A DNA stretch of 10,544 bases from Gemmatimonadota bacterium. GTDB taxonomy: Bacteria > Latescibacterota > UBA2968 > UBA8231. Position 1 is the stretch's first letter; each line of letters starts with the position of its first letter. Shown one piece after another: positions 1 to 10,544 of the stretch. The stretch is taken from positions 1 through 10,544 of the forward strand of contig JAPPEF010000303.1 in NCBI GenBank assembly GCA_028875335.1, read 5' to 3'. The position numbers and the translations under genes were made by a program. The notes under the pieces are model-generated. The model had not been told where the DNA came from, did not search any database, and saw only the letters and a program-made list of their open reading frames with translations.

Positions 1-1
1 C

Positions 2-568
2 CGCATGGAAGTGGCCGCGGCCTCAGCGACGAACATGATCAAGAAGCTCGCCGAGATGAACCTGCTCATCTACACGCCGTACCACGGGGTCGAGCTAACG
101 GCCAGTGGCGAGAAGATCGCCTTGGAGACCATTCGCCACCACCGCTTGATCGAGCTATATCTCAGCCAAGCGTTGGGCTATTCCTGGGACCAGATCGATG
201 CCGAGGCCGACCGCCTAGAGCACGCTATTTCCGAGGAATTTGAAGACCGCATCGACGAGGCTTTGGGCTATCCGACCGTCGGTGCCCACGGCGAGCCAAT
301 TCCCACCAAGCAAGGCCAGATTGACCACCCGAAGTACCGCCGTCTCTCCGAGCTACAAGACGGCCAGTCCGCGGTCATCCGCCGCGTCAGCGACCGCAAT
401 CCCCAGATGCTGCGCTATATGGAAAATTTGCAATTGCGCTTGGGTACCCGAGTCGAAGTCACCGCCAAGGCACCCTTTAACGGTCCGCTGCAATTGAAGA
501 TCGACGCCTCTAAGGAGGTGTCGCTAGGGCTGGAAGTGGCCGGTAGTATCTTCGTCGAAGCCGATTAA
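2..568 (+). CDS. DtxR/MntR-family metal-dependent transcriptional regulator (5' partial)
   Basis: Metal-sensing repressor that binds DNA when loaded with Fe(II) or Mn(II). The reading frame is open through the left edge. The ATG at base 5 falls inside the recognition-helix region (ASATNMIKKLAE), so it is not the real start and the first part of the winged helix is missing. Numbering from that Met, the dimerisation and metal domain spans about residues 44-100. H46/E50 match the H79/E83 pair of DtxR, and D69/E72/H73 match C102/E105/H106. The Cys position is Asp here (MntR has Glu), so the metal preference cannot be called safely. Residues about 110-187 form the C-terminal SH3-like FeoA domain. 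The gene converges on the LON-domain gene and the two overlap by 4 bp. Family assignment is firm; the regulated genes are not visible. Confidence 0.9.
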   Translation, partial: RMEVAAASATNMIKKLAEMNLLIYTPYHGVELTASGEKIALETIRHHRLIELYLSQALGYSWDQIDAEADRLEHAISEEFEDRIDEALGYPTVGAHGEPIPTKQGQIDHPKYRRLSELQDGQSAVIRRVSDRNPQMLRYMENLQLRLGTRVEVTAKAPFNGPLQLKIDASKEVSLGLEVAGSIFVEAD

Positions 569-1218
569 GAGCCTTCTCTATGGCTCCCGGTGTGCCCATT
601 GGAGGACGCTAAGCGATGGAGCTTGCGCTCCGCCTCTAGCAGGGGAATTATTTGCTCAAAGTACTCGCAGAGCGCGTGTAGGCGACCATTCTCGGTCGTC
701 ATTTCCAGCAGTTGTTGCCTAATCTCCAGATCGAGGCCCGTCACTTGGGCCATTTGAAAGGCGTTTTGCATAGACCCTACCTCGGCGTGCGCGCCGGTCA
801 CTTCCTCGAGTTGCTTCACCAATTTTTCTAAGGCCGCAACGGCCTTGGCCAAAAGCACTGGATCCGTCGGCTCCTCGGTGTCATCTACGTATTCTACCCA
901 CGCCTCTAAGTAGGGTTTGTGCTCGTCAATGCGCGCAATGCGAAAGCGCCGCGCGCCGCGGACGATGATGTTGAGTCGTCCATCGTCGAACTCATCGAGC
1001 ACTTTGGCCAACAGCATTGCGCAGCCCACCTCGCCCTGTACCTCGCGATCCTTCCCCAGAATCATGCCAATGGGCAGAGTCTCACCGCGCTCGTCAGCCG
1101 CCCGCACATCGGCGAGCATCTGCTTGTAGCGCGGCTCAAATATGTGCAAGGGCACGATTTGGTCGGGGAAGACCACTATCGGCAGGGGAAAGAGTGGAAT
1201 CGGATTGCAATCTAGCAT
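565..1218 (-). CDS. LON substrate-binding (Lon N-terminal) domain protein
   Basis: A 217-residue stand-alone protein related to the N-terminal substrate-recognition domain of Lon protease, without the AAA+ and protease domains. The diagnostic start is visible: PLFPLPIVVFPD at residues 8-19 and LHIFEPRY at 24-31. It is followed by a GMILG strand, a GC-rich-protein style CAMLLAKV strand and a GARRFRI strand, then a helical C-terminal part. This length is normal for bacterial single-domain LON proteins, whose exact role is poorly defined; protein quality control is assumed. I chose the ATG at 1218 because the frame extends further upstream only to a TTG (1296), and the family motif begins a few residues after the ATG. 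No clear Shine-Dalgarno sequence is seen. It is divergent from the PcfJ-domain gene across about 175 bp. Confidence 0.88.
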   Translation of the reverse strand: MLDCNPIPLFPLPIVVFPDQIVPLHIFEPRYKQMLADVRAADERGETLPIGMILGKDREVQGEVGCAMLLAKVLDEFDDGRLNIIVRGARRFRIARIDEHKPYLEAWVEYVDDTEEPTDPVLLAKAVAALEKLVKQLEEVTGAHAEVGSMQNAFQMAQVTGLDLEIRQQLLEMTTENGRLHALCEYFEQIIPLLEAERKLHRLASSNGHTGSHREGS

Positions 1219-1393
1219 GGGCGCGTCGTGCTGGGTTGGTTGATAAGAGCAAATTAAACCGCCGATACCAGCGAGGGCAAGCGGTGGCTGTGGCAACTAG
1301 GAATTTTCGATCTACTGCGACGCGGTTGGCACTATTGACATTATACTAGCTGCGAGACTCATTAAGGAGTGCTCTCAAAACCGGGACTTGGCT

Positions 1394-2983
1394 ATGGCGC
1401 GCCGCCGCAAAAGAAATGTCCGCAGCGAGATCGAGCGAGCCCACAACCGGGCTAATCTCAGAAGCCACATCCGCGCCCTCGGCCTCCAATCCGAGGACGA
1501 GTACCGGGCTTGGTGTCGCAAGCGCGGTTTGGGCGACGGACTCCACAAGAGCAATCGCCAGATCCAAAAAGAGCGCCAAGCCGCCCGCCGCCAACAGGGC
1601 GAGGCCGCGCTCACCCGCACCCGCCAACAAACGCGCAGCCCAGCCAACACCATCCGCCAGCTCTACGACCGCACGCTCCCCAAGGGACGGCTCGGTGCCG
1701 ACTACCTCTACAAGATCCGCGGCCTCTTCAACGCCTTTCCCCACGGCCCGACGCGCCGCGCCTTTCTCGACATTCTGCTCCAAGCCGCACGCCGCGCCGA
1801 CCTGTTTCGCCTCGATCCCGTCATCCCCGCTTTCGGTGCCCACCCAGATAACAACTTCATCGAAGGTCTAGCCGCCTTGGCCCGCCATTCAGAAGACTGG
1901 GTGCGGCCCGTGGCCGAGTGGGTGCCGCCGAGCCACAACCCCCGCAAGCAGTTTCACCACCTCGCCTGCCACCTGCTGGCCCGCTATGACGTGCCCACTT
2001 TTATGGATGCGGCCTTTTTCACCGCCGCGATGCCAGAGGCTGGCTTGCATCAGGCGTGGTTCAAACACATCGGCTCGGGGCAGAACATCCGCACCGCCGA
2101 CCTCCCCGTCGCCTTGAGCAAGAAGTCGGCCCACTGCTTCCTCGCCGCCCCCGACGACCTCTCCATCGCCTATGCCCTACGCTGGGGACAAGTCTTGGGC
2201 CAAGGCGGCAGTCCGGCGCTGGCGCGGGCGGTGATTGGCACCCGGCTGGGCCAGTCGTTTGAAAACGAGGACTTTTGGTCCACTGCGATCCTGTTTTTTG
2301 CCAACAATCCCATGCTCGACCCGGCTCACGTCGGCCCTATCGTCGATTTTATCCACGATCAGAAATATGTGCCGCAGCAAATCGCCCTGCCCGGCGGTGG
2401 CTTCGAGCAAAGGCCGCCGGCGCAGCCGAACTTTTCGCTGAAGAGCCGCAGCATTCCCAAGCTGTTGCGCCAAGTTGACGAGTGGCACGAAGCGCTGGCG
2501 CGACAGGTGCTGCTACCCGATGCAGAGGACGAGCCAGACAGAGCTGGCGGCAAAAAGGTGCGCGTCCGGCACATGTCTTGGGGCGCTTCGAGTATCGGCG
2601 AATTCGAGATGAAGCAGGAGGACAAGCAACTCGGCGAAACCCTCACCTGGAGCGTAAAGGAGCTGCTCTCCAACCACGAACTGGGGGCCGAGGGCCGCGA
2701 AATGGGCCACTGCGTCTATACCTACGCCAAGAGCTGTCGCAACGGCAGTACCTCGATCTGGTCCCTCGGCTTAGAAGACGGCAAAGGCCACCGCCACCGC
2801 ATCCTCACCATCGCCGTCGATCCACGCAGCCGCACCATCACCCAAATCCGCGGCCGCTTCAACGCCTTGCCCAACGCCAAAAACAAAAAGAACCTAGAGC
2901 GCGCTTACCAGAAAATGCTGCTCCGCTCGCACAACGTGCTCGGGCAGTGGATGAGCCGCGAATTCATCAGCAAGCGCTGCTGA
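1394..2983 (+). CDS. PcfJ-like domain protein of unknown function
   Basis: A 529-residue basic protein. The N-terminal ~75 residues are rich in Arg, Lys and Gln (MARRRKRNVRSE...), suggesting nucleic-acid contact or coiled structure. The middle (about 90-400) is helical and unrecognised. The C-terminal part carries the PcfJ-like signature: MGHCVYTYA with H439/C440, a short strand ending in WSL, then a strand ILTIAV and a turn TQIRGRFNALPN. PcfJ is named from conjugative plasmid pCF10, and its biochemical role is not established. No conjugation gene is visible here. A TTG six bases upstream (1388) is possible, but ATG 1394 is preferred. AAGGAG at 1364-1369 is too far (24 nt) for ideal pairing, and a -10-like TATACT at 1342-1347 has no partner -35. 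The HigA-like gene starts 8 bp after the stop, so the two may be co-transcribed. Confidence 0.72.
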   Translation: MARRRKRNVRSEIERAHNRANLRSHIRALGLQSEDEYRAWCRKRGLGDGLHKSNRQIQKERQAARRQQGEAALTRTRQQTRSPANTIRQLYDRTLPKGRLGADYLYKIRGLFNAFPHGPTRRAFLDILLQAARRADLFRLDPVIPAFGAHPDNNFIEGLAALARHSEDWVRPVAEWVPPSHNPRKQFHHLACHLLARYDVPTFMDAAFFTAAMPEAGLHQAWFKHIGSGQNIRTADLPVALSKKSAHCFLAAPDDLSIAYALRWGQVLGQGGSPALARAVIGTRLGQSFENEDFWSTAILFFANNPMLDPAHVGPIVDFIHDQKYVPQQIALPGGGFEQRPPAQPNFSLKSRSIPKLLRQVDEWHEALARQVLLPDAEDEPDRAGGKKVRVRHMSWGASSIGEFEMKQEDKQLGETLTWSVKELLSNHELGAEGREMGHCVYTYAKSCRNGSTSIWSLGLEDGKGHRHRILTIAVDPRSRTITQIRGRFNALPNAKNKKNLERAYQKMLLRSHNVLGQWMSREFISKRC

Positions 2984-2991
2984 TTCCATAG

Positions 2992-3297
2992 ATGGCTACC
3001 AACGGCACCAAAGTGAACATGACTCCTTCGCATCCGGGAGACTTCATTCGCACGGAGATTATCGAGGAGTTGGGTCTGAACGTGACAAGGGTAGCCGAAA
3101 TTCTGGCGGTTCGGCGGGCAACGCTTTCGGATTTACTAAACGGCAACGCTGCGCTATCGCCAGAGATGGCTCTGCGCATCGAGAAGGCATTCGGCGTGGG
3201 TATGGACATGTTGCTGCAGATGCAGGCTTGGTACGACGCCTCGCAGATGCGCGCCCGTGCAAATGAGATCAGTGTACAACGCTATGAACCTATCTAA
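2992..3297 (+). CDS. higA: HigA/VapI-family XRE antitoxin, apparently orphan
   Basis: A 101-residue helix-turn-helix protein of the HigA type, which normally represses its own operon and neutralises the HigB mRNA interferase. Visible family marks are HPGDFI at residues 14-19, the XRE helix-turn-helix at about 31-50 (TRVAEILAV...ATLSDLLNG), SPEMALRIEKAFG at about 56-68, and a late QAWYD motif. An internal ATG (3019) sits just before the HPG motif and could be the true start. Neither start has a good ribosome site. higB normally lies directly upstream, but the 8 bp before this gene lead straight into the PcfJ-domain gene, and no HigB-like protein is encoded after it. Base composition drops here relative to the upstream gene, which suggests separate acquisition. 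Confidence 0.85.
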   Translation: MATNGTKVNMTPSHPGDFIRTEIIEELGLNVTRVAEILAVRRATLSDLLNGNAALSPEMALRIEKAFGVGMDMLLQMQAWYDASQMRARANEISVQRYEPI

Positions 3298-3327
3298 CTT
3301 GGTATTCACACTCTTGGAGTATATGCC

Positions 3328-3555
3328 ATGACTACGATACCGATCAGAGAAGCAAGTTCGCGGCTTAGCGAATTGATTGACCAACTACAGCCGGGTGAGG
3401 AAATCGGGTTGACGCGCGGCAGCGACACCGTTGCACGGCTAGTGAAAAATAGCACTCAAAAGCAAGCACGACAGTTTGGCCTTGGAAAGGGCAAATTGAC
3501 GATCCTTGACGATGACGATGAGCACCTTGAGCATTTCCAGGACTATTTGCCGTGA
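3328..3555 (+). CDS. Phd/YefM-family antitoxin
   Basis: A 75-residue type II antitoxin. The N-terminal Phd-type DNA-binding and dimerisation fold is visible as IPIREASSRLSELIDQL, then GEEIGLTRGSDTVARLV (about residues 5-40). The acidic tail (DDDDEHLEHFQDYLP, residues 61-75) is the typical toxin-wrapping segment of this family. A ribosome site GGAG at 3316-3319 lies 8 nt before the ATG. The stop overlaps the GTG start of the PIN toxin (bases 3552-3555, GTGA), the usual translational coupling of such pairs. By family knowledge it represses its own operon. No operator palindrome was identified. Confidence 0.88.
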   Translation: MTTIPIREASSRLSELIDQLQPGEEIGLTRGSDTVARLVKNSTQKQARQFGLGKGKLTILDDDDEHLEHFQDYLP

Positions 3556-3938
3556 ACCTGTTACTCGATACGCACGCGTTTCTTTGGATGTCGCTCGATG
3601 ATCCGCAACTCAGCGAGACAGCGCGGGGGGAACTGTCCGACACCGAGAATGAGCTGTACCTTAGCCCTGCATCTTACTGGGAGATTGCGATTAAAATATC
3701 GATTGGTAAATACAATCTTACTGAGCCACTTGCTGCGTTCGTCAAACGCGAAATTATCGCTAACAATTTTAAGGTGCTACCAATCGATATCGATCATACT
3801 GCCGAAATAAGTGCGCTGCCCTTTCACCACAAAGATCCGTTTGATCGAATGCTCATTGCTCAGTCAATGGTAGAAAACTTTCCACTCGTGAGTCGGGATA
3901 CCATCCTCGATCAATATGGTGTTGTACGTATTTGGTAA
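3552..3938 (+). CDS. PIN-domain (VapC-like) ribonuclease toxin
   Basis: A 128-residue PIN-domain toxin, expected to be a Mg-dependent RNase inhibited by the antitoxin encoded just upstream. The acidic catalytic residues are all present: D6 in LLLDTHAFLW, E44 in SYWEIAIK, D98 in DPFDRMLIAQ and D116 in VSRDTILD. The length is normal, so the toxin appears intact. Translation starts at GTG 3552 inside the end of the antitoxin gene. The DNA is markedly AT-richer than its surroundings: by hand count, bases 3661-3720 contain 21 G/C of 60. This points to acquisition by transfer. Confidence 0.92.
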   Translation: MNLLLDTHAFLWMSLDDPQLSETARGELSDTENELYLSPASYWEIAIKISIGKYNLTEPLAAFVKREIIANNFKVLPIDIDHTAEISALPFHHKDPFDRMLIAQSMVENFPLVSRDTILDQYGVVRIW

Positions 3939-3978
3939 CAGCGATTAAAGAACTCTTTCTGCGCTATCTTGCTTCCGC

Positions 3979-4281
3979 ATGGAAAACACATACTTCGTCC
4001 CAGCCGACGCCGAGCACGTCGCCCGACAGAAAAACAAAGCCAAGGAACTGCGTCGCTCCCAATGGTGGAAGCGCAAACGGGCTTCTGGCCAGTGCCACTA
4101 TTGCCATCAGTCATTCCCGCCCGATGAACTAACCATGGATCACGTGGTGCCGCTCGTCCGCGGCGGCCGCACCACCAAATCCAACGTGGTGCCTTGCTGT
4201 AAGCACTGCAACAGCCAAAAACAGCACCTGCTCCCCGTCGAATGGGCAGCCTATCTAGAGCGGCTGTGCAACGAAGGCTAG
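3979..4281 (+). CDS. Small HNH endonuclease
   Basis: A 100-residue protein with a complete zinc-stabilised HNH nuclease core. It has CHYC at 39-42, the catalytic DHVVP at 54-58 (D54/H55), the GG turn at 62-63, N69, and the second zinc pair C74/C77 followed by N78 and K81. A basic N-terminal helix (about 13-35, many Lys and Arg) could hold DNA. Stand-alone HNH proteins of this size may be mobile-element remnants, restriction-like nucleases or repair factors, and nothing here separates these. Base composition returns to high GC (4141-4200: 42 of 60 by hand count), so it probably does not belong to the toxin-antitoxin patch. Its stop codon overlaps that of the convergent DHDPS-like gene. Confidence 0.9.
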   Translation: MENTYFVPADAEHVARQKNKAKELRRSQWWKRKRASGQCHYCHQSFPPDELTMDHVVPLVRGGRTTKSNVVPCCKHCNSQKQHLLPVEWAAYLERLCNEG

Positions 4282-5219
4282 TGATAGTCCACAATGTCTG
4301 CTATAGCCGCTGCCACTTCCTCTGCCACTTCCGCCGGCACCCGAGGATTGAACGGGCCGCCATCGCCGCCGTCCACATCGCTGAATCCCCCCAAGTGCAT
4401 GGCCTCGACCACAGCCGAGTAGTTGTACATGCGGCCATCGCGGAAGCGAATTCCCTCTAGAGCCGCAAGCTTGTCTTCAATCTGCTGCGAGGTCGCAAAA
4501 TCGCCCCGACGCTGGGCGTTGTTGATCTCGTCTGAAGCGCGGGCAAAGGCCACGTTGATCCCCGACGTATGCCCCTTGGTACCGCGCTCGGCCGGTCCAG
4601 TCGAGCGGTCCCCCACGCCCCAAATCACCAGCGCAGCCCCTTCTTCCACACCCGCGACAATCGGCTCAACATCATCAACCGTGGTGCCAATCTTCAGCCC
4701 CACGAAGTGTTCGGACTCGTTCATCAGCCGCACGGCTATCTCGCGCTCGGCTTGGTTGCGCAGGTAGTAGAGCAACTGGGCCCCACACGAACTTCCCAAT
4801 CGCTCGGCAAAGTCCATGTAGTACGCGAAAATGCCCTCTGGACTGGCCACGCCCGTAAGCGGCATGACGAGATAGACATCCGGGGGATATTCGAGCGCGG
4901 CCTCCCGCTCGATCAACCGCTCGGCATCCCCAACCGGATTCGGAGCAAGCCCAGACATCAGCACCCCGCGTCCCCCCATCTGCTCGCCGGTAAAGCCCAA
5001 CAGCCGCACTTGCTCGTCCGCGCTAATGTGGTGGATCAAGCTGGTGCCGGCGATGCCAATCACTCGGGGCCGGTCGCCATCCAAGTGATTGTTCTCCATC
5101 AAGTAGTTGATGTTCTTGGCGTGGGCCTCGTAGTCGATTTGCCCGCCGCGAAAAGGAACCACCGGAATGGAGGTAACCGAGTTTAACGCGGCGAGTAGGT
5201 CTTCTTTTTGCAATGGCAT
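4278..5219 (-). CDS. Divergent DHDPS/NAL (DapA) superfamily protein
   Basis: A 313-residue protein with the class I Schiff-base aldolase/lyase TIM-barrel layout of dihydrodipicolinate synthase and N-acetylneuraminate lyase. The likely Schiff-base lysine is K176 in FVGLKIGTT, and Y151 in QLLYYLRN aligns with the catalytic Tyr. Two hallmarks are changed: the usual GTTGE loop reads GTSLIHH (58-64), and the usual YN-x-P reads YYLR. A true lysine-biosynthesis DapA is therefore unlikely, and a different 2-oxo-acid substrate is implied. ATG 5219 is chosen over a TTG at 5231 because GAGG at 5226-5229 sits 6 nt before it. It is the last gene of the minus-strand BMC operon, 33 bp after the flavoenzyme. 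It lacks the N-terminal module of its paralogue. Substrate unknown. Confidence 0.82.
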   Translation of the reverse strand: MPLQKEDLLAALNSVTSIPVVPFRGGQIDYEAHAKNINYLMENNHLDGDRPRVIGIAGTSLIHHISADEQVRLLGFTGEQMGGRGVLMSGLAPNPVGDAERLIEREAALEYPPDVYLVMPLTGVASPEGIFAYYMDFAERLGSSCGAQLLYYLRNQAEREIAVRLMNESEHFVGLKIGTTVDDVEPIVAGVEEGAALVIWGVGDRSTGPAERGTKGHTSGINVAFARASDEINNAQRRGDFATSQQIEDKLAALEGIRFRDGRMYNYSAVVEAMHLGGFSDVDGGDGGPFNPRVPAEVAEEVAAAIADIVDYH

Positions 5220-5225
5220 GTTTAA

Positions 5226-5229
5226 CCTC
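5226..5229 (-). promoter_or_regulatory. Ribosome binding site (GAGG) for the distal DHDPS-like gene
   Basis: Read on the minus strand, GAGG lies 6 nt upstream of ATG 5219. It overlaps the region just before the alternative TTG at 5231, which it could not serve. It therefore decides in favour of the ATG. Confidence 0.6.
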
Positions 5230-5252
5230 AACTGTGTTAAGTGGCAGTGAAT

Positions 5253-6326
5253 TCAACGCTCGGGCGCGAAGCGGCGCATGTCGCGCCCCGGAGTTCCCTC
5301 GGCGATCCAACGGGCGACGATCTGACCGGTAATTGGGCCCAGCAAGACCCCATTTTTGTAGTGCCCAGAGGCCACGAAAACGCGCGGCGCATCCGTCAGC
5401 GGGCCGATGAGCGGACGCCCGCCTCGGGGCTTGGGCCGCAGACCGGCCTGCTGGCGCAACAGCGGCAAACATCTTCCCAGCGCGGAGTGTACCTCCGAGG
5501 CAAACTGCGCAGCGGCTGCGCAGGTCGTTGCCAACCGAAAGCCGACCTCCTCCGCCGTCGCTCCCACGATCGTTTCGCCGCCGTCTGGAATAAAGTGGCG
5601 TCCATTTATCCTCACTAGGTGGCGCAGCGGGGCACCGGCAAAACGCGCTTGTTGACCCCGCACCGGGCGCAGTGCGACTTGGGCACCGAGTTGCGCTGCC
5701 AAGCCGCCGGTCCACGCCCCAGCCGCCAAAACCACAAAGTCGGCACGATGGGTCCCGCGACTGGTGGCGACCTCGACGGTCTCGCCTTCGTGGGCAATGC
5801 GCCAGACGCGCTCACCCCAATCGGCAGACGCACCCTGCCGGACGGCCGCCGCCCAAAGCGCCGCGCCCAACTTGAGGGGATCCACCCGGTGATCGTCGGC
5901 AAAATACAGCCCCTCGCCGCCGTCCAACCCCGGCTCCGCATCGCGCAAGGCCCGCTCGTCGAGCCGCTCGACCCGACAGCCGCGCTCGCGGTTGAAGCGC
6001 CATACCTCCTCTAGCTGGGATGGGTCGGCAAAAAGATCGATACCGCCGAGGGGACGCCAGCCCACGTCTGCCCCCAAGTCTTCGGCTAGGTCGCGGGCCA
6101 GCCGAGCGTGCAAAGCGTGACCATCGCGGAAAAGCTGGGCGTAGGGATTGTCTCCGCCGTTGCAGTGGGTGAGAACGCCCAACGAGGCCCGGCTCGTGGG
6201 CGAGCCTGCGGGGATCCCCTCGTCGAGCAGGACGACCTGCGCGTCTTGCCGAGCGAGGAAATAGGCCGTCGAGCGGCCGATGATACCGGCCCCAACTACC
6301 AATACGCGTGCGCCCGTCAGGGCCAT
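5253..6326 (-). CDS. FAD-dependent D-amino-acid oxidase / ThiO-like glycine oxidase family protein
   Basis: A 357-residue flavoenzyme of the DAO superfamily, expected to oxidise a primary or secondary amine or amino acid to an imine, with O2 or another acceptor. The Rossmann motif VVGAGIIG (G12, G14, G17) and an acidic ribose-binding end of strand 2 (D35/E36) open the protein. RGQQARF, then FIPDGGETIVGAT, and the C-terminal SGHYKNGVLLGP (320-331) are ThiO-like. The position taken by the substrate-carboxylate Arg in B. subtilis glycine oxidase (recalled as HxRNG) is Lys324 here, so the substrate may differ. No thiamine gene is nearby. The ATG directly abuts the TAG of the upstream DHDPS-family gene (0 bp), implying coupling. 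No N-terminal targeting extension is seen. Confidence 0.85.
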   Translation of the reverse strand: MALTGARVLVVGAGIIGRSTAYFLARQDAQVVLLDEGIPAGSPTSRASLGVLTHCNGGDNPYAQLFRDGHALHARLARDLAEDLGADVGWRPLGGIDLFADPSQLEEVWRFNRERGCRVERLDERALRDAEPGLDGGEGLYFADDHRVDPLKLGAALWAAAVRQGASADWGERVWRIAHEGETVEVATSRGTHRADFVVLAAGAWTGGLAAQLGAQVALRPVRGQQARFAGAPLRHLVRINGRHFIPDGGETIVGATAEEVGFRLATTCAAAAQFASEVHSALGRCLPLLRQQAGLRPKPRGGRPLIGPLTDAPRVFVASGHYKNGVLLGPITGQIVARWIAEGTPGRDMRRFAPER

Positions 6327-7508
6327 CTAGCGACCGACAATCGGCGGTAGGTTGGTCGCCGGGCAGGCGCGGGGGCCTTGGACTGGATAGCCCATATCCG
6401 CGAGGACGCAGTTGATTTGGGCCTCTAGCTTGATCAGGTACTCCTGTTCGGACGCGCTGCTCGACGCGCGCGCTGGGCCTACGTCAAAGCCACGGGCCGC
6501 TACGCCGGTCTTAAAGCCCTCTGGGAAGTTGACCCCGAGGAGCATCAAGTTGATGAGATCGAGGATGCGGTATTGCAGTTCGCGGGCCCGCTCGATATCG
6601 CCGCTTTTGGCTTTTTCATAAAGTTCGACGATCACCTCTGGGACAATGCCCGAGGTGGCAATGGTGCCTCCGTTGGCTCCCATGAGCACCGAGGGGAATA
6701 CGAGTTCCTCGCAACCAGTCATCACCACGTAATCGGAGCGCTGTTGGCGCAGGCGGTTCATGGTGTTGAGCAGCCTCGGCAGGTCGCGGCTGGAGTCCTT
6801 GATGCCGAAGATCCGATCGTAGGGCAAGAGCCGCTCCAGCAAATCTATCGACAGCTCTTGGGTAAATTGCGGGATATTGCACAGCAGGATATCCAGCGGC
6901 GATTCCTCGGCGATTTCGGCGAAGTACTCGAAAAGGCTCTCGGTGGAAATCTCGTAGTAATAGGGAGGCATCAGCGCAATGGCATCTACGCCGAGTGAGG
7001 CGTAGTATTCGGCCATCTTGAGCACGTCGCGCAAGTTGGCCTCGCTGGCTCCAGCCAGTACGGGTACGCGTCCCTTATTGACCTCGCAGACCAGCCGCAC
7101 CACGTCTTGGCGTTCCTCCTGCGACAGGCGCGAGAACTCGCCCGTGCTGCCGTTTGGGTACAGCCCGTGGACCCCAGCCTCGATCAGCCAGTTGATGTAC
7201 CGCTCCATCTCGGCGTGGTTGATCCTGTTCTGGCTGTCCAAAAGGACGATATTGGGGCAGAAGATGCCAGCAAATGCCTGGCGTCCGGCGGCGCGAGGAA
7301 CCGCTGGCGTCGGTGCTGGTGTCAGTGTTGTCGTTGGGGGAGCTTGGCTGCTGGCTTCCCGGCGTACGATCTCAACGCCTTGGGCATGCAACAAGTCTTG
7401 CGCCGAGGGCGTCAGCTTGGCCCCCGGGCCGATCTCGACCTGCCGCTCGCCCTCCAAGCGGCCCTCCAAGGTCTGAGCGGTAATTACTGCATCGTCAATC
7501 CGAATCAT
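6327..7508 (-). CDS. DHDPS/NAL-family lyase with N-terminal BMC-associated module
   Basis: A 393-residue protein in three parts. Residues 1-52 form a small module (VITAQ...GAKLTPSAQDLL...GVEIV) that recurs at the N-terminus of the cysteine-rich protein of this operon. It resembles, from memory, the LTPAA..L..RGI module of EutT/EutQ-type BMC proteins. Residues 53-76 are a Pro/Thr/Ala linker. From F79 on lies a complete DHDPS-type barrel: the GSTGE loop at 120-124 and the Schiff-base lysine K237 in FGIKDSS. The catalytic-Tyr position of the usual YN-x-P motif is Cys210 (LLCNIPQFT), a TGC codon. A role as aldolase, dehydratase or deaminase on a 2-oxo acid is inferred, and the substrate is unknown. 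The module suggests packaging in the compartment. GAGGA at 7517-7521 lies 8 nt before the ATG. Confidence 0.86.
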   Translation of the reverse strand: MIRIDDAVITAQTLEGRLEGERQVEIGPGAKLTPSAQDLLHAQGVEIVRREASSQAPPTTTLTPAPTPAVPRAAGRQAFAGIFCPNIVLLDSQNRINHAEMERYINWLIEAGVHGLYPNGSTGEFSRLSQEERQDVVRLVCEVNKGRVPVLAGASEANLRDVLKMAEYYASLGVDAIALMPPYYYEISTESLFEYFAEIAEESPLDILLCNIPQFTQELSIDLLERLLPYDRIFGIKDSSRDLPRLLNTMNRLRQQRSDYVVMTGCEELVFPSVLMGANGGTIATSGIVPEVIVELYEKAKSGDIERARELQYRILDLINLMLLGVNFPEGFKTGVAARGFDVGPARASSSASEQEYLIKLEAQINCVLADMGYPVQGPRACPATNLPPIVGR

Positions 7509-7516
7509 TTTTTGCG

Positions 7517-7521
7517 TCCTC
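7517..7521 (-). promoter_or_regulatory. Ribosome binding site (GAGGA) for the modular DHDPS-family gene
   Basis: On the minus strand, GAGGA is 8 nt before ATG 7508, just after the TAG of the four-domain BMC gene. It is one of the better ribosome sites in the operon, which fits independent, strong translation of this enzyme, and it supports including the N-terminal module in the protein. Confidence 0.6.
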
Positions 7522-7522
7522 G

Positions 7523-8671
7523 CTAAACGTGCGGCAGGCGGCCTTCGAGGCCGCTGTAGGGCTGCGGAATTGCGTAGGCCGAGACCAGTTCTCCGTGTTC
7601 AACGGCCTCCTCCCGACCCGCATCTATGGCGACCTGCACGGCACCGACATCGCCGCGCACGACCGCGGCCGTCAAGTAGTACCCCACCTTATAGGCTCCC
7701 TCGTATTCGACGGCCGCAGCCTTGAGCATGCGATCAACGGCCCGCACCAAGGCCACGGTACTGCGCGTCTCAATCAGCCCCATGGCCTGCCGCGCACCCG
7801 CGCCAAGGCCCTCGGCCGCAGTGGCAAAACGGGCGACGAGCGCGGGATCGGGTCTAGAGACTACGGCCGAAGCGTCGAGCTCCCCCAAGGCCGTGGCTGC
7901 CTCGGCCCCGGCGCGCACTGCGGCCTGCACGTCGTCGAGATGGCCGGTGGCCAGCGCGGTAATCCGCCCGCCACTACCAATGCTCAAGCGCTCGACTTGC
8001 ACATCCCCGGCCTTGAGCATGGCGTCGGCGCTGCCCACGACCGTGGCGTAACCAATGGTCTCTATGAGGCCCAAAGCACCGGTGGAGCGCAGCTCGACCG
8101 CTGGCGCGGGCGGCAACAGAGGGCCTAGCCCCTCACTAGGCTGCGGCAAAACGAGCGTCGCGTACACAGTGCCAATCCGCTCGGCTGCTTGTCGGCCAAT
8201 TTCCAGCGCCGTCTGCACGGCCGCCACATCGCCAAAAATCGGCGCGTGACACAGCGCGCCGCCGATGAAGGCCCAACCCCCTAGCTCCACCTGGGCGGCC
8301 TTGAGCATGGCATCGGCACCGGCCACTAGCGGCGTCAGGCCCTGCGTCTCCAACAAGCCAATCGCCTGTGGCTGTACCTGCTCGGCACCGAGGCCGGTTG
8401 CGTGGGGCATGGCGTCTGTGGCGCGCGCATCCGGTCGCGGCACCACTTGCGTGCCAATCAGTTCGCCGGTGCGATTCGCCTCGACCTCGCCGACGCGGAT
8501 GGCCGCTTCTACATCAGCCACTTGGCCGGAGATTACGGTGGTGAGCCAACCCGAGCCAATGCCGTGCCGACCGCACAGTTGCACCTCAGCGGCCTTGAGC
8601 ATGGCATCGGTAGAAGCCATTAGCGACGCCATGCCGCGCGTCTCCAGTATGCCGATCGCTCCGCTAGACAC
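7523..8671 (-). CDS. Shell protein with four tandem BMC domains
   Basis: A single open frame encodes four complete BMC (Pfam00936-type) domains. Numbering from the possible upstream GTG at 8677, they lie at about residues 6-83, 104-181, 200-277 and 297-374. Each starts with an AxGLxET-like strand, has an AMLKA helix (RMLKA in the fourth; K28, K126, K222, K319), a pore loop, a GDV/AV-type helix and ends in PxP. The pore loops differ: GIGSGW, FIGGAL, SIGSGG and KVGYYL. Linkers of about 20 residues separate the domains. Known shell proteins have one (BMC-H) or two (BMC-T) domains, so this equals two BMC-T or four BMC-H subunits in one chain. No internal stop or frameshift is seen. GTG 8671 is preferred because GGGAGG precedes it by 5 nt. 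The 5' end lies inside the preceding BMC-T gene. Confidence 0.9.
   Translation of the reverse strand: MSSGAIGILETRGMASLMASTDAMLKAAEVQLCGRHGIGSGWLTTVISGQVADVEAAIRVGEVEANRTGELIGTQVVPRPDARATDAMPHATGLGAEQVQPQAIGLLETQGLTPLVAGADAMLKAAQVELGGWAFIGGALCHAPIFGDVAAVQTALEIGRQAAERIGTVYATLVLPQPSEGLGPLLPPAPAVELRSTGALGLIETIGYATVVGSADAMLKAGDVQVERLSIGSGGRITALATGHLDDVQAAVRAGAEAATALGELDASAVVSRPDPALVARFATAAEGLGAGARQAMGLIETRSTVALVRAVDRMLKAAAVEYEGAYKVGYYLTAAVVRGDVGAVQVAIDAGREEAVEHGELVSAYAIPQPYSGLEGRLPHV
7556..8662 (-). repeat. Four degenerate in-frame repeats of about 290 bp encoding BMC domains
   Basis: The plus-strand decamer cttgagcatg, which encodes the AMLKA/RMLKA helix, appears at 7721, 8012, 8300 and 8594. 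The spacings are 291, 288 and 294 bp, i.e. 97, 96 and 98 codons. Outside such conserved blocks the copies have diverged strongly, so this is an old domain duplication maintained by selection, not a recent DNA-level repeat or an assembly artefact. Confidence 0.8.
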
Positions 8672-9248
8672 CGCCACCTCCCATCGGCGCGGCGTATGCA
8701 GCCAAGACTTCTGGCCTCGGCTGTGGAATCAGCGCCGTGCCCAGCAAGTGCTCGCAGTCCGCGAGCAACTTTCGCGCGACGGCGATGGCTTCGTTGACGG
8801 CCCCTACGTCTCCCAAGATTAGCGAACACACCACGCGGTCGTGGATTGTCAGCACGTTGATTACCTCGACGGGAGCCGTCTTAACCATCTGATCGTTGGT
8901 GTGAATGTGGGCCCCATAGCCGCGCGTCTCGACCAATCCTAGGGCACCAGCGGGAAAGTCGCTGTCGGGCTGGACCGGAAAATCGACAAAATGGCGGCAA
9001 GCGGCAGCGGGTTGGAGTAGAGGAGCAGCCACCACGTGTTCTATCACGCTGCGGGCCGCCTCTTCACCGTTTTGCAGCGCCGCGGCCACATCGCTGATCG
9101 ATCCGGTGAAAAAGGCCGTAGTATAACCGCCGATTGACGACCAACCTGCGAGCTTAACGTCCGCGGCCTTGCAGGCCGCATCTGCACCCACAATGGCAGC
9201 GGCCACGCCCTGCACTTCGATCATGCCGACTGCCGGATCGCCCGCCAT
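8664..9248 (-). CDS. Two-domain BMC shell protein (BMC-T), divergent pores
   Basis: A 194-residue tandem BMC protein, predicted to form trimers that act as pseudohexameric tiles in the compartment shell. Domain 1 (about 4-80) opens with VGMIEVQG and has a GDV-like block altered to GSISDV. Domain 2 (about 99-178) opens with ALGLVETRG and has an intact GDVGAV. The pore loop of domain 1 is SIGGYT, but domain 2 has TIHDRV, with His and Asp instead of glycines, so the trimer pore should be chemically unlike a BMC-H pore. Cys141 lies just after that loop, but there is no obvious Fe-S ligand at the pore as in PduT. The tail is MGGGGV. ATG 9248 follows the TAA of the cysteine-rich gene by 3 bp, and no clear ribosome site is visible. 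Confidence 0.92.
   Translation of the reverse strand: MAGDPAVGMIEVQGVAAAIVGADAACKAADVKLAGWSSIGGYTTAFFTGSISDVAAALQNGEEAARSVIEHVVAAPLLQPAAACRHFVDFPVQPDSDFPAGALGLVETRGYGAHIHTNDQMVKTAPVEVINVLTIHDRVVCSLILGDVGAVNEAIAVARKLLADCEHLLGTALIPQPRPEVLAAYAAPMGGGGV
8677..8682 (-). promoter_or_regulatory. Ribosome binding site (GGGAGG) inside the upstream BMC-T gene
   Basis: On the minus strand, GGGAGG sits 5 nt before GTG 8671 and overlaps the competing GTG at 8677, so it supports the inner start. It is embedded in the codons for the glycine-rich C-terminus of the preceding BMC-T protein. The two shell genes are thus translationally coupled. Confidence 0.55.
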
Positions 9249-9251
9249 AGC

Positions 9252-9704
9252 TTAATCTGCCAGCCGGTGAATTACTAGCTCGGTGATTTGCTCAATTAGG
9301 GCTTCGGGGTCGGAGGCTTGGCCCCGTTCAATCTGTTGCAAAAGCGTCTTGTAGCGATTGCAACCCTCGCAACTCGCCTCGGGATCTCCCGCCTTCTTGC
9401 GCTCGTGAACGGCGCAATCGCCGCAGTGTGCTGGCTCGACGTACCCCGAGCCAAATTCCTCGTGCTCGCAGCCGCAGGCGCGGTCGGGATGCTCGCACCG
9501 GCCCGCGTCCGCAACGCCCTCGGCAGCGGCAGCTGCAACGGCCTCGCCACGACTTAACTGCAAGCGGTGCTGGCGGATGTAGTCCCAAGCCGTCGGCGTC
9601 AAGATGGCGCTGGGAGCCACGCTGAGCGTCCGCTCGCCCTTGTGCTCGCGTCCGAGCAAGTCGCCGGTTACTACCGGGGCGTCGATGTGCAAAGCCTCGG
9701 TCAC
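9252..9704 (-). CDS. Cysteine-rich BMC accessory protein with encapsulation-peptide-like C-terminus
   Basis: A 150-residue protein not recognised as a named family. Residues 7-55 align without gaps to residues 4-52 of the modular DHDPS-family enzyme (18 of 49 identical by eye, including LTPxAxD). An Ala-rich linker follows. Residues 70-115 hold seven cysteines: C70, C77, C79, C94/C97 (CGDC) and C112/C115 (CEGC), with H72, H81, H93 and H100 nearby. This would suit zinc or an Fe-S cluster. The last helix (DPEALIEQITELVIHRLAD, 132-150) is amphipathic and resembles BMC encapsulation peptides. It starts at GTG 9704, 4 bp after the BMC-H stop, without a good ribosome site. A cargo-shell adaptor or redox/metal protein of the core is inferred; no enzymatic fold is evident. 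Confidence 0.75.
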   Translation of the reverse strand: MTEALHIDAPVVTGDLLGREHKGERTLSVAPSAILTPTAWDYIRQHRLQLSRGEAVAAAAAEGVADAGRCEHPDRACGCEHEEFGSGYVEPAHCGDCAVHERKKAGDPEASCEGCNRYKTLLQQIERGQASDPEALIEQITELVIHRLAD

Positions 9705-9708
9705 CTAG

Positions 9709-9972
9709 CTAACCAAGGTGGTCTGTCAGTCCCTCAGTCGGACGAGGAATCACGTGGACGCTGCGCAACTCGCCGATGCGCTGGGCGGCTTGCGCTCCCG
9801 CATCCACGGCCGCTTTGACAGCCGCTACGTCGCCTTCGACCAGCACGGCGATTAGGCCACTGCCCACGCGCTTTTGGCCCGCATAGCTCACGTCCGCGGT
9901 CTTCAACATGGCGTCGAGGGCTTCGACGACGCAGACCAAACCTCGGGTCTCGACCATGCCCAATGCTTTCAT
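9709..9972 (-). CDS. Single-domain BMC shell protein (BMC-H, PduA/EutM-like)
   Basis: An 87-residue canonical BMC-H protein that should form the hexameric tiles making up most of the shell facets. It contains ALGMVETRG at the start, the DAMLKTADV helix, the pore loop KRVGSGL, the [13 protein letters not shown] block and the C-terminal HVIPRPT. The GSG pore is typical of small polar metabolite channels in this family. The length is normal and the protein looks intact. AGGAG at 9980-9984 lies 7 nt before the ATG, the best ribosome site of the operon, fitting the high copy number needed for BMC-H. It follows the two-domain protein by 12 bp. Confidence 0.97.
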
Positions 9973-9979
9973 TATTTGT

Positions 9980-9984
9980 CTCCT
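9980..9984 (-). promoter_or_regulatory. Strong ribosome binding site (AGGAG) for BMC-H
   Basis: On the minus strand, AGGAG is placed 7 nt before ATG 9972. It is the closest match to the consensus in the operon and sits in the short gap after the preceding TAG. Confidence 0.65.
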
Positions 9985-10544
9985 CTACAAGTACAGCGCG
10001 ATGAGATCGTCGTGCGGGCGGGGAATCACGTGTTGCGACACGAGCTCGCCCACGCGCTCGGCCGCCTCGGCACCAGCGCTGACCGAAGCCTGCACCGAGC
10101 CGACGTCGCCACTGACCATGACGGTGATGTACCCGCCGCCGATGTCCTGGAGCTTGACGACCTCCACATTGGCGGCCTTGCTCATGGCGTCGGCCGCTTC
10201 GATCACGCCGATGGATCCCTTCGTCTCAATGAGACCCAAGGCGCGGACGCGGCCATCGCTGTCGCCGCTGTCGCCGCGCTCGGGCACGACGGTCGTCAAT
10301 TCGCTGTGCGGGCGGGGAATCACGTGGACCGAATGCACCTCTCCGACCTTGGCCGCAGCAGTCGAGCCAGCATCCACGGCCGACTTGACGGCCGCCACAT
10401 CGCCCGCGCAAAACACAGTCACCAAGCCAGAACCGACTCTATCCCAGCCCAAAAGCTGGACGCTGGCGGCCTTGGCCATGGCGTCGCCGGCCTCGACGAC
10501 CCCGACCAACCCCACGGTTTCTACCATGCCTATTGCATCCGACA
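9985..10544 (-). CDS. Two-domain BMC shell protein (5' end at window edge)
   Basis: A tandem BMC protein of about 185 residues. Domain 1 (about 4-80) reads AIGMVETVG..., with pore loop DRVGSGL and GDVAAVKSAVDAG, ending HVIPRPH. Domain 2 (about 97-178) reads ALGLIETKG..., with pore loop DIGGGY and GDVGSVQASVSAG, ending HVIPRPH. A short acidic linker (RGDSGDSDG) joins them. Both halves resemble BMC-H closely, including both HVIPRPH ends, so it looks like a simple fusion of two BMC-H units. The frame continues past the internal ATG at 10527 as S-D-A-I-G, and the last two window bases are TG on this strand. The true ATG therefore probably has its A one base beyond the window. It is the first visible gene of the operon; the promoter must lie outside. 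Confidence 0.93.
   Translation of the reverse strand, partial: SDAIGMVETVGLVGVVEAGDAMAKAASVQLLGWDRVGSGLVTVFCAGDVAAVKSAVDAGSTAAAKVGEVHSVHVIPRPHSELTTVVPERGDSGDSDGRVRALGLIETKGSIGVIEAADAMSKAANVEVVKLQDIGGGYITVMVSGDVGSVQASVSAGAEAAERVGELVSQHVIPRPHDDLIALYL

Follow-up and report, generated by a model that had tools for sequence, protein, structure and literature searches.

The window analysed here is a stretch of 10,544 nucleotides (contig JAPPEF010000303.1, positions 1 to 10,544) from a Gemmatimonadota bacterium. On the minus strand, at 7523..8671, it carries a gene for a bacterial microcompartment (BMC) shell protein of 382 aa, which we refer to as QBMC, with four BMC domains in one chain. The gene immediately upstream (8664..9248, minus strand) encodes a BMC-T-like protein of 194 aa, hereafter the partner; unmentioned in the initial annotation, it comprises exactly two BMC domains. 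Because two and four domains make six, we propose a two-chain tile. We lean towards the view that the partner supplies the two missing domains, and that QBMC and partner together build a six-part tile.

The QBMC open reading frame (ORF) lies on the minus strand, and stops interrupt the frame-1 plus-strand translation of the same span. Judged from the sequence, the start is probably the GTG at 8671, with GGGAGGT ending four bases ahead. From an alternative GTG at 8677 the longer frame is likewise open and would give 384 aa. A Pfam-A search with QBMC returned PF00936 as the sole family, in four stretches (E 3.8e-79; 261.1 bits against a gathering cut-off of 24.5), in agreement with the initial annotation, which had read four complete domains in one frame. 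In the numbering of the 382-aa protein, the first residues of the domains are 5, 103, 199 and 296. The resulting period of 98, 96 and 97 matches the 96-98 residue repeat described before, and the linkers between domains measure 18-20 residues. Domain D1 covers residues 5-82 (8426..8659), D2 residues 103-180 (8132..8365), D3 residues 199-276 (7844..8077) and D4 residues 296-373 (7553..7786), all on the minus strand. The edge lysines are Lys26, Lys124, Lys220 and Lys317, respectively. With the gathering score passed and the edge lysine conserved, QBMC belongs to the PF00936 shell proteins.

A four-domain chain can also be the product of sequencing or assembly error, and a joining of two BMC-T genes had been raised as a way in which the reading could fail. 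A scan with one genome per species gave 79 loci. Full-length QBMC was present in 13 of these (L001-L013, from 13 different metagenome-assembled genome (MAG) records), at 56-98% identity and always with four domains; the remaining 66 loci held relatives with one to three domains. Three protein searches, of which the best 120 each of 1812, 230 and 174 matches were considered, yielded 165 distinct natural homologues. Among the matches listed, 160 carry four domains, with chain lengths of 369-404 aa, whereas five carry three. In those five, the first domain is absent, the chain breaks ahead of the fourth or the protein has a recombined look. Fragmentation, a late start, a frameshift or recombination would account for them, which shows that the records of this family are not free of errors. 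Nevertheless, because the same four-domain chain recurs in the 13 MAG records and in 160 of the 165 listed homologues, a chance frame, a frameshift or a mis-assembly is excluded for QBMC. Intact chains in these records refute the erroneous fusion of two BMC-T genes, and so does the ratio of summed dN to summed dS, which was 0.098 (36 pairs from nine close relatives). We regard the probability of an artefact as negligible. By part, dN/dS was 0.128 for D1, 0.045 for D2, 0.108 for D3, 0.062 for D4 and 0.162 for the linkers. QBMC was detected at E <= 1e-30 in 27 of 64 genomes from the phylum of the L004 genome (uncultured Latescibacteria); some MAGs with QBMC are labelled Gemmatimonadota or Gemmatimonadetes. 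At L116:1224-2397, a break in the D3/D4 linker divides the QBMC gene 3+1, the fourth domain having its own frame that begins right after the stop of the three-domain ORF. Fission and frameshift are indistinguishable in this case, which was not counted.

The four domains differ in a position-specific manner. We aligned 92 sequences, namely the window protein, 82 of the 116 four-domain proteins from the first protein search and nine from the loci. The commonest pore loops were RHG[IV]GSGW in D1, FIGGALxH in D2 (a domain that also has an invariant W133), IGSGGR in D3 and YKVGYFLTA in D4. The four different loops seen in the single sequence hold across the sequences aligned. The edge lysine, which we take to occupy the position of PduA Lys26, was kept in 100% of sequences for D1, D2 and D3 and in 98% for D4. 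When the six positions (four in QBMC, two in the partner) were placed in a tree with BMC-H and the EutM-like two-domain protein of the locus, each of the six formed a separate clade (0.91-1.0). With outgroups included in a wider tree, five of the six positions did so (0.95-0.997). The domains are individually conserved, as the initial annotation had it, and its point that four per chain cannot evenly close one hexagon alone also stands.

Gene order ties QBMC to two neighbours. Counts were taken from 27 QBMC loci (L092-L118). The partner gene was directly upstream of QBMC in all 25 loci with upstream sequence, and a gene for an aldolase of the dihydrodipicolinate synthase (DHDPS) family was directly downstream in 27 of 27. 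In the window, the 3' end of the partner gene overlaps the QBMC start by 8 nt, and translation of the two is probably coupled. Partner orthologues (E < 1e-50) occurred in 26 of the same 64 genomes, and all 26 also had QBMC. In the 27th QBMC genome, G048, the partner copy is cut by the contig end; G025 gave no more than a weak 36% match to the partner. In L010-L013, partner, QBMC and aldolase genes stand by themselves, the other shell genes, including BMC-H, being on other contigs.

Structure prediction suggests how the QBMC domains are arranged. AlphaFold2, run on the single chain, placed all four domains (predicted local distance difference test, pLDDT, 92.4; predicted template modelling score, pTM, 0.91). 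In the model, D3 and D4 superpose on both domains of one 6ner tandem chain. High-confidence placement of four domains, together with the D3-D4 fit to 6ner, argues against a QBMC with a loosely tethered domain. The predicted geometry of the partner's domain pair is that of QBMC D3-D4. Among the solved chains listed (60 of 63), the longest BMC match was again the two-domain 6ner, over query residues 4-187. Natural BMC-T chains reached only TM ~0.4, with an rmsd of 14-17 Å, in Foldseek comparisons with the QBMC and partner models, much as one would expect if a single domain fitted and the other were placed differently. With VIA, the alignment of HO-5812 to the partner model spanned 94 residues; the 50 matches listed there for each model did not include PduT, which excludes nothing. 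We take HO-5812 to be circularly permuted, as some natural BMC-Ts are, and this may add to the structural difference.

These predictions bear on whether QBMC could form tiles alone, either as three chains making two hexagons or with chains straddling adjacent tiles. The arithmetic allows it (3 x 4 = 12), since three chains, as in the homotrimeric pseudohexagon of a BMC-T, bring 12 domains, and linkers of 18-20 residues might permit a swap between tiles. However, the model is one well-defined four-domain body, rigid four-domain arcs would fill hexagons only if one chain were split, and the strict pairing with a two-domain gene would be left unexplained. We consider such self-assembly quite unlikely. 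We do not favour the initial suggestions of 1.5 chains per hexagon, two linked hexagons or a spare bridging domain.

In the two-chain arrangement, QBMC would be a microcompartment facet protein. Its four domains would form one rigid arc along four adjoining positions of a hexagonal tile, as the whole-chain pTM and the D3-D4 geometry suggest, and the remaining two places would be taken by the upstream two-domain protein. The product would be a 1:1 two-chain pseudohexamer with six different positions in fixed order, each with its own pore loop, so that the central pore would be asymmetric. Contact with adjacent tiles would be made by the usual edge lysines, conserved in each of the four QBMC domains. 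There is, in our judgement, an even chance that this 1:1 pseudohexamer is obligate and lacks internal symmetry, its one pore being ringed in set order by six domains that are genetically distinct, some of them presenting small loops and others Ser, Tyr, His and Arg side chains. If so, covalent ordering of four subunits, with two more from a neighbouring gene, would give a shell pore a defined asymmetric chemistry. It would be, to our knowledge, the first natural facet tile with subunit order and pore chemistry so fixed, and would offer a template for engineered tiles having one addressable position.

An alternative is that QBMC takes four places and that two BMC-H subunits, or the EutM-like two-domain protein, take the others, the BMC-T-like neighbour forming ordinary homotrimers. 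The main locus does encode both a BMC-H and another shell protein with two domains, and hetero-hexamers of BMC-H paralogues are reported in the available portions of two studies (PMC6788708; PMC12058022). Conversely, only the BMC-T-like gene adjoins QBMC at every locus with upstream sequence, BMC-H is on other contigs in L010-L013, and the match between the partner's predicted pair geometry and QBMC D3-D4 disfavours a BMC-H filler. We judge this alternative unlikely.

Several points nevertheless weigh against pairing QBMC with the partner. The structural support is a single-chain prediction, and both the complex and the D1-D2 and D2-D3 adjacencies are hypothetical. The two vacant places could be taken by BMC-H or by the other shell protein with two domains, and the partner could assemble with itself into a homotrimer. 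The partner search covered the 64 genomes of the phylum of the L004 genome only. The aldolase accompanies QBMC as strictly as the partner does (27 of 27); because it is an equally faithful neighbour, synteny supports a functional unit and not contact itself. No natural six-domain fusion of partner and QBMC was seen among the best 120 of 230 matches to a read-through query. Those matches were 322-404 aa long and covered 52-69% of the query, and the search could miss unlisted matches or ones sharing too few words. In the wider tree, the partner's first domain formed no clade. Finally, the six domain classes can be paired in 15 ways, and the approximately unbiased (AU) test rejected none of them, so that the trees do not fix the duplication order.

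The trees gave differing hints about that order (Q, QBMC domains; T, partner domains). FastTree grouped T2 with Q3 (0.82-0.93) and Q1 with Q4 (0.77-0.84), and constrained IQ-TREE runs favoured T1-Q1, T2-Q3 and Q2-Q4. A fast unconstrained IQ-TREE run scored under the best constrained one, so the searches were shallow. By the RELL and ELW measures, six of the 15 pairings are excluded. The idea that QBMC arose when a single BMC-T was duplicated in tandem (D1D2 resembling D3D4) was not demonstrated. Partner and QBMC as a duplicated three-domain unit (ABC-ABC) was suggested by the FastTree groupings and dropped, as AU rejects no pairing.

The surrounding genes, all on the minus strand, indicate what the shell may enclose. 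The aldolase (6327..7508; PF00701, E 1.5e-56), a DHDPS-family class I aldolase/lyase, is a probable cargo enzyme. It has a conserved N-terminal extension of ~75 aa that presumably resembles the start of EutT/EutQ. Among 27 sequences of this protein (DHDPS1), with motif counts covering the commonest variants only, KDSSRD was present in 24 of 24 covered and GSTGE in 19 of 20, the other having GSMGE. The residue ahead of NIP was Tyr in 18 of 23 and Cys in 5 of 23, the window protein having Cys. Going by its family, the enzyme likely splits its substrate in a retro-aldol reaction that yields pyruvate and an aldehyde. In relatives, the loci continue past the window edge with genes for an aldehyde dehydrogenase, a PduL-type phosphotransacylase and BMC-P (in L004, PF00171/NF011927 at 649 bits against a cut-off of 403 and PF06130/NF011652 at 224 bits against 209; in L008, PF03319), and PF00936 is also found there. 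The window ends at 10544; with aldehyde dehydrogenase, phosphotransacylase, BMC-H and BMC-P all present in relatives, the locus type there is a metabolosome. From these families, the shell would enclose an aldehyde-handling pathway. The DHDPS-family aldolase would release an aldehyde, which a CoA-acylating aldehyde dehydrogenase and then PduL would convert to acyl-CoA and acyl-phosphate.

This setting bears on a further possibility, that QBMC is a deliberately incomplete tile whose gap admits a large substrate or docks cargo. The modelled four-domain arc would leave two places vacant, as that idea needs. However, a two-domain gene is at hand to close the gap, and a leaky shell works against aldehyde containment. 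We think an incomplete tile very improbable and continue to prefer closure by the partner.

The locus holds further genes. A flavin adenine dinucleotide (FAD)-dependent, ThiO-like amine oxidase (5253..6326; PF01266) follows the aldolase; L010-L013 lack this gene next to QBMC, so it is not essential to the module. Beyond it is a second, divergent DHDPS-family protein (4278..5231; PF00701, E 6.5e-10). Hydroxyproline catabolism proceeds through an epimerase, D-hydroxyproline oxidase, pyrroline-4-hydroxy-2-carboxylate deaminase and ketoglutarate semialdehyde dehydrogenase. We considered this pathway: genes of the D-amino acid oxidase (DAO) and DHDPS families are present, but the dehydrogenase falls in NF011927 and L010-L013 have no DAO gene beside QBMC. 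Upstream of the partner is a Cys-rich protein of 150 aa (9252..9704) with an N-terminal motif resembling that of the aldolase. It matched no Pfam family, and TIGR02536 scored only 19 bits, far under cut-off; its gene is not beside QBMC in L010-L013. Next is an EutM-like BMC-H (9709..9972; PF00936; NF012018 at 110 bits, under the cut-off of 133). The two-domain EutM-like shell protein (9985..10542; PF00936 twice) has its 5' end cut by the window. Both its domains are EutM-like, with a mean identity of 48% to each other, and a complete relative of 186 aa is at L004:8696-9256. Its domain make-up suggests a natural equivalent of 6ner, the engineered tandem BMC-H. It has no counterpart beside QBMC in L010-L013.

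Farther along the window, 2992-3938 holds a helix-turn-helix (HTH) gene, a Phd/YefM-like antitoxin (under the Pfam cut-off) and a PIN-domain gene, a stretch that differs between relatives. At 1388-2983 is a PcfJ-like protein of 531 aa, whose gene adjoins the locus in L003, L004, L006 and L009 (4 of 13, several loci being too short to tell). Elsewhere in G001, three clustered BMC-P genes (G001:C1:3155167-3155962; L085, L124) form a satellite shell locus away from the main one. Matching clusters occur in G002, G003 and G005, and in G004 the three BMC-P genes share the main-locus contig, ~4 kb off. G001 has two more single BMC-H genes at separate chromosome sites (L122:4239-4532 and L123:4607-5056), with no other shell gene in the 10 kb covered. 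Distinct from the four-domain family is a three-domain BMC chain of 298 aa in an Epulopiscium MAG (L048:10010-10906), apparently an in-frame fusion that joins a BMC-T and a BMC-H, in that order.

Models of shells usually assume that each facet tile repeats the same chain, with one domain or two. The literature searched, which did not extend to supplements, gave no account of a chain having more than two BMC domains. Natural chains of this kind seem undescribed, and a catalogue supplement may hold a locus code name. CcmO is a two-domain chain of the beta-carboxysome locus. The CcmO model NF053792 scores QBMC at 270.3 against a cut-off of 270, and some relatives are named CcmO by JGI; however, that model is 205 positions long, whereas QBMC has four domains and, in relatives, an aldehyde-dehydrogenase/PduL locus, which sets it apart from CcmO. 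In the portions available, the 2021 catalogue assigns one pfam00936 domain to BMC-H and two to BMC-T (PMC8217296), and the MCPdb paper names single, tandem and permuted BMC forms (PMC8007038). Like BMC-T proteins (PduT, 3n79; HO-5812, 5dih), QBMC has several PF00936 domains of the same fold in one chain, but four in place of two, and it falls outside that two-domain class. Similarly, BMC-H has one such domain and forms a homohexamer, so that QBMC, with four, is not a BMC-H. The 6ner protein is engineered from two BMC-H domains, whereas QBMC is natural and its four domains differ. One study, in the part available, states that BMC-H is at present modelled as homo-oligomeric and makes a case for hetero-hexamers (PMC12058022). 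The proposed tile resembles the CcmK3/CcmK4 and PduA/PduJ hetero-hexamers, which, as far as the accessible text of the reports goes, are mixed-subunit tiles with broken six-fold symmetry (PMC6788708; PMC12058022). In those assemblies separate one-domain chains mix, whereas in QBMC the order is covalently fixed.
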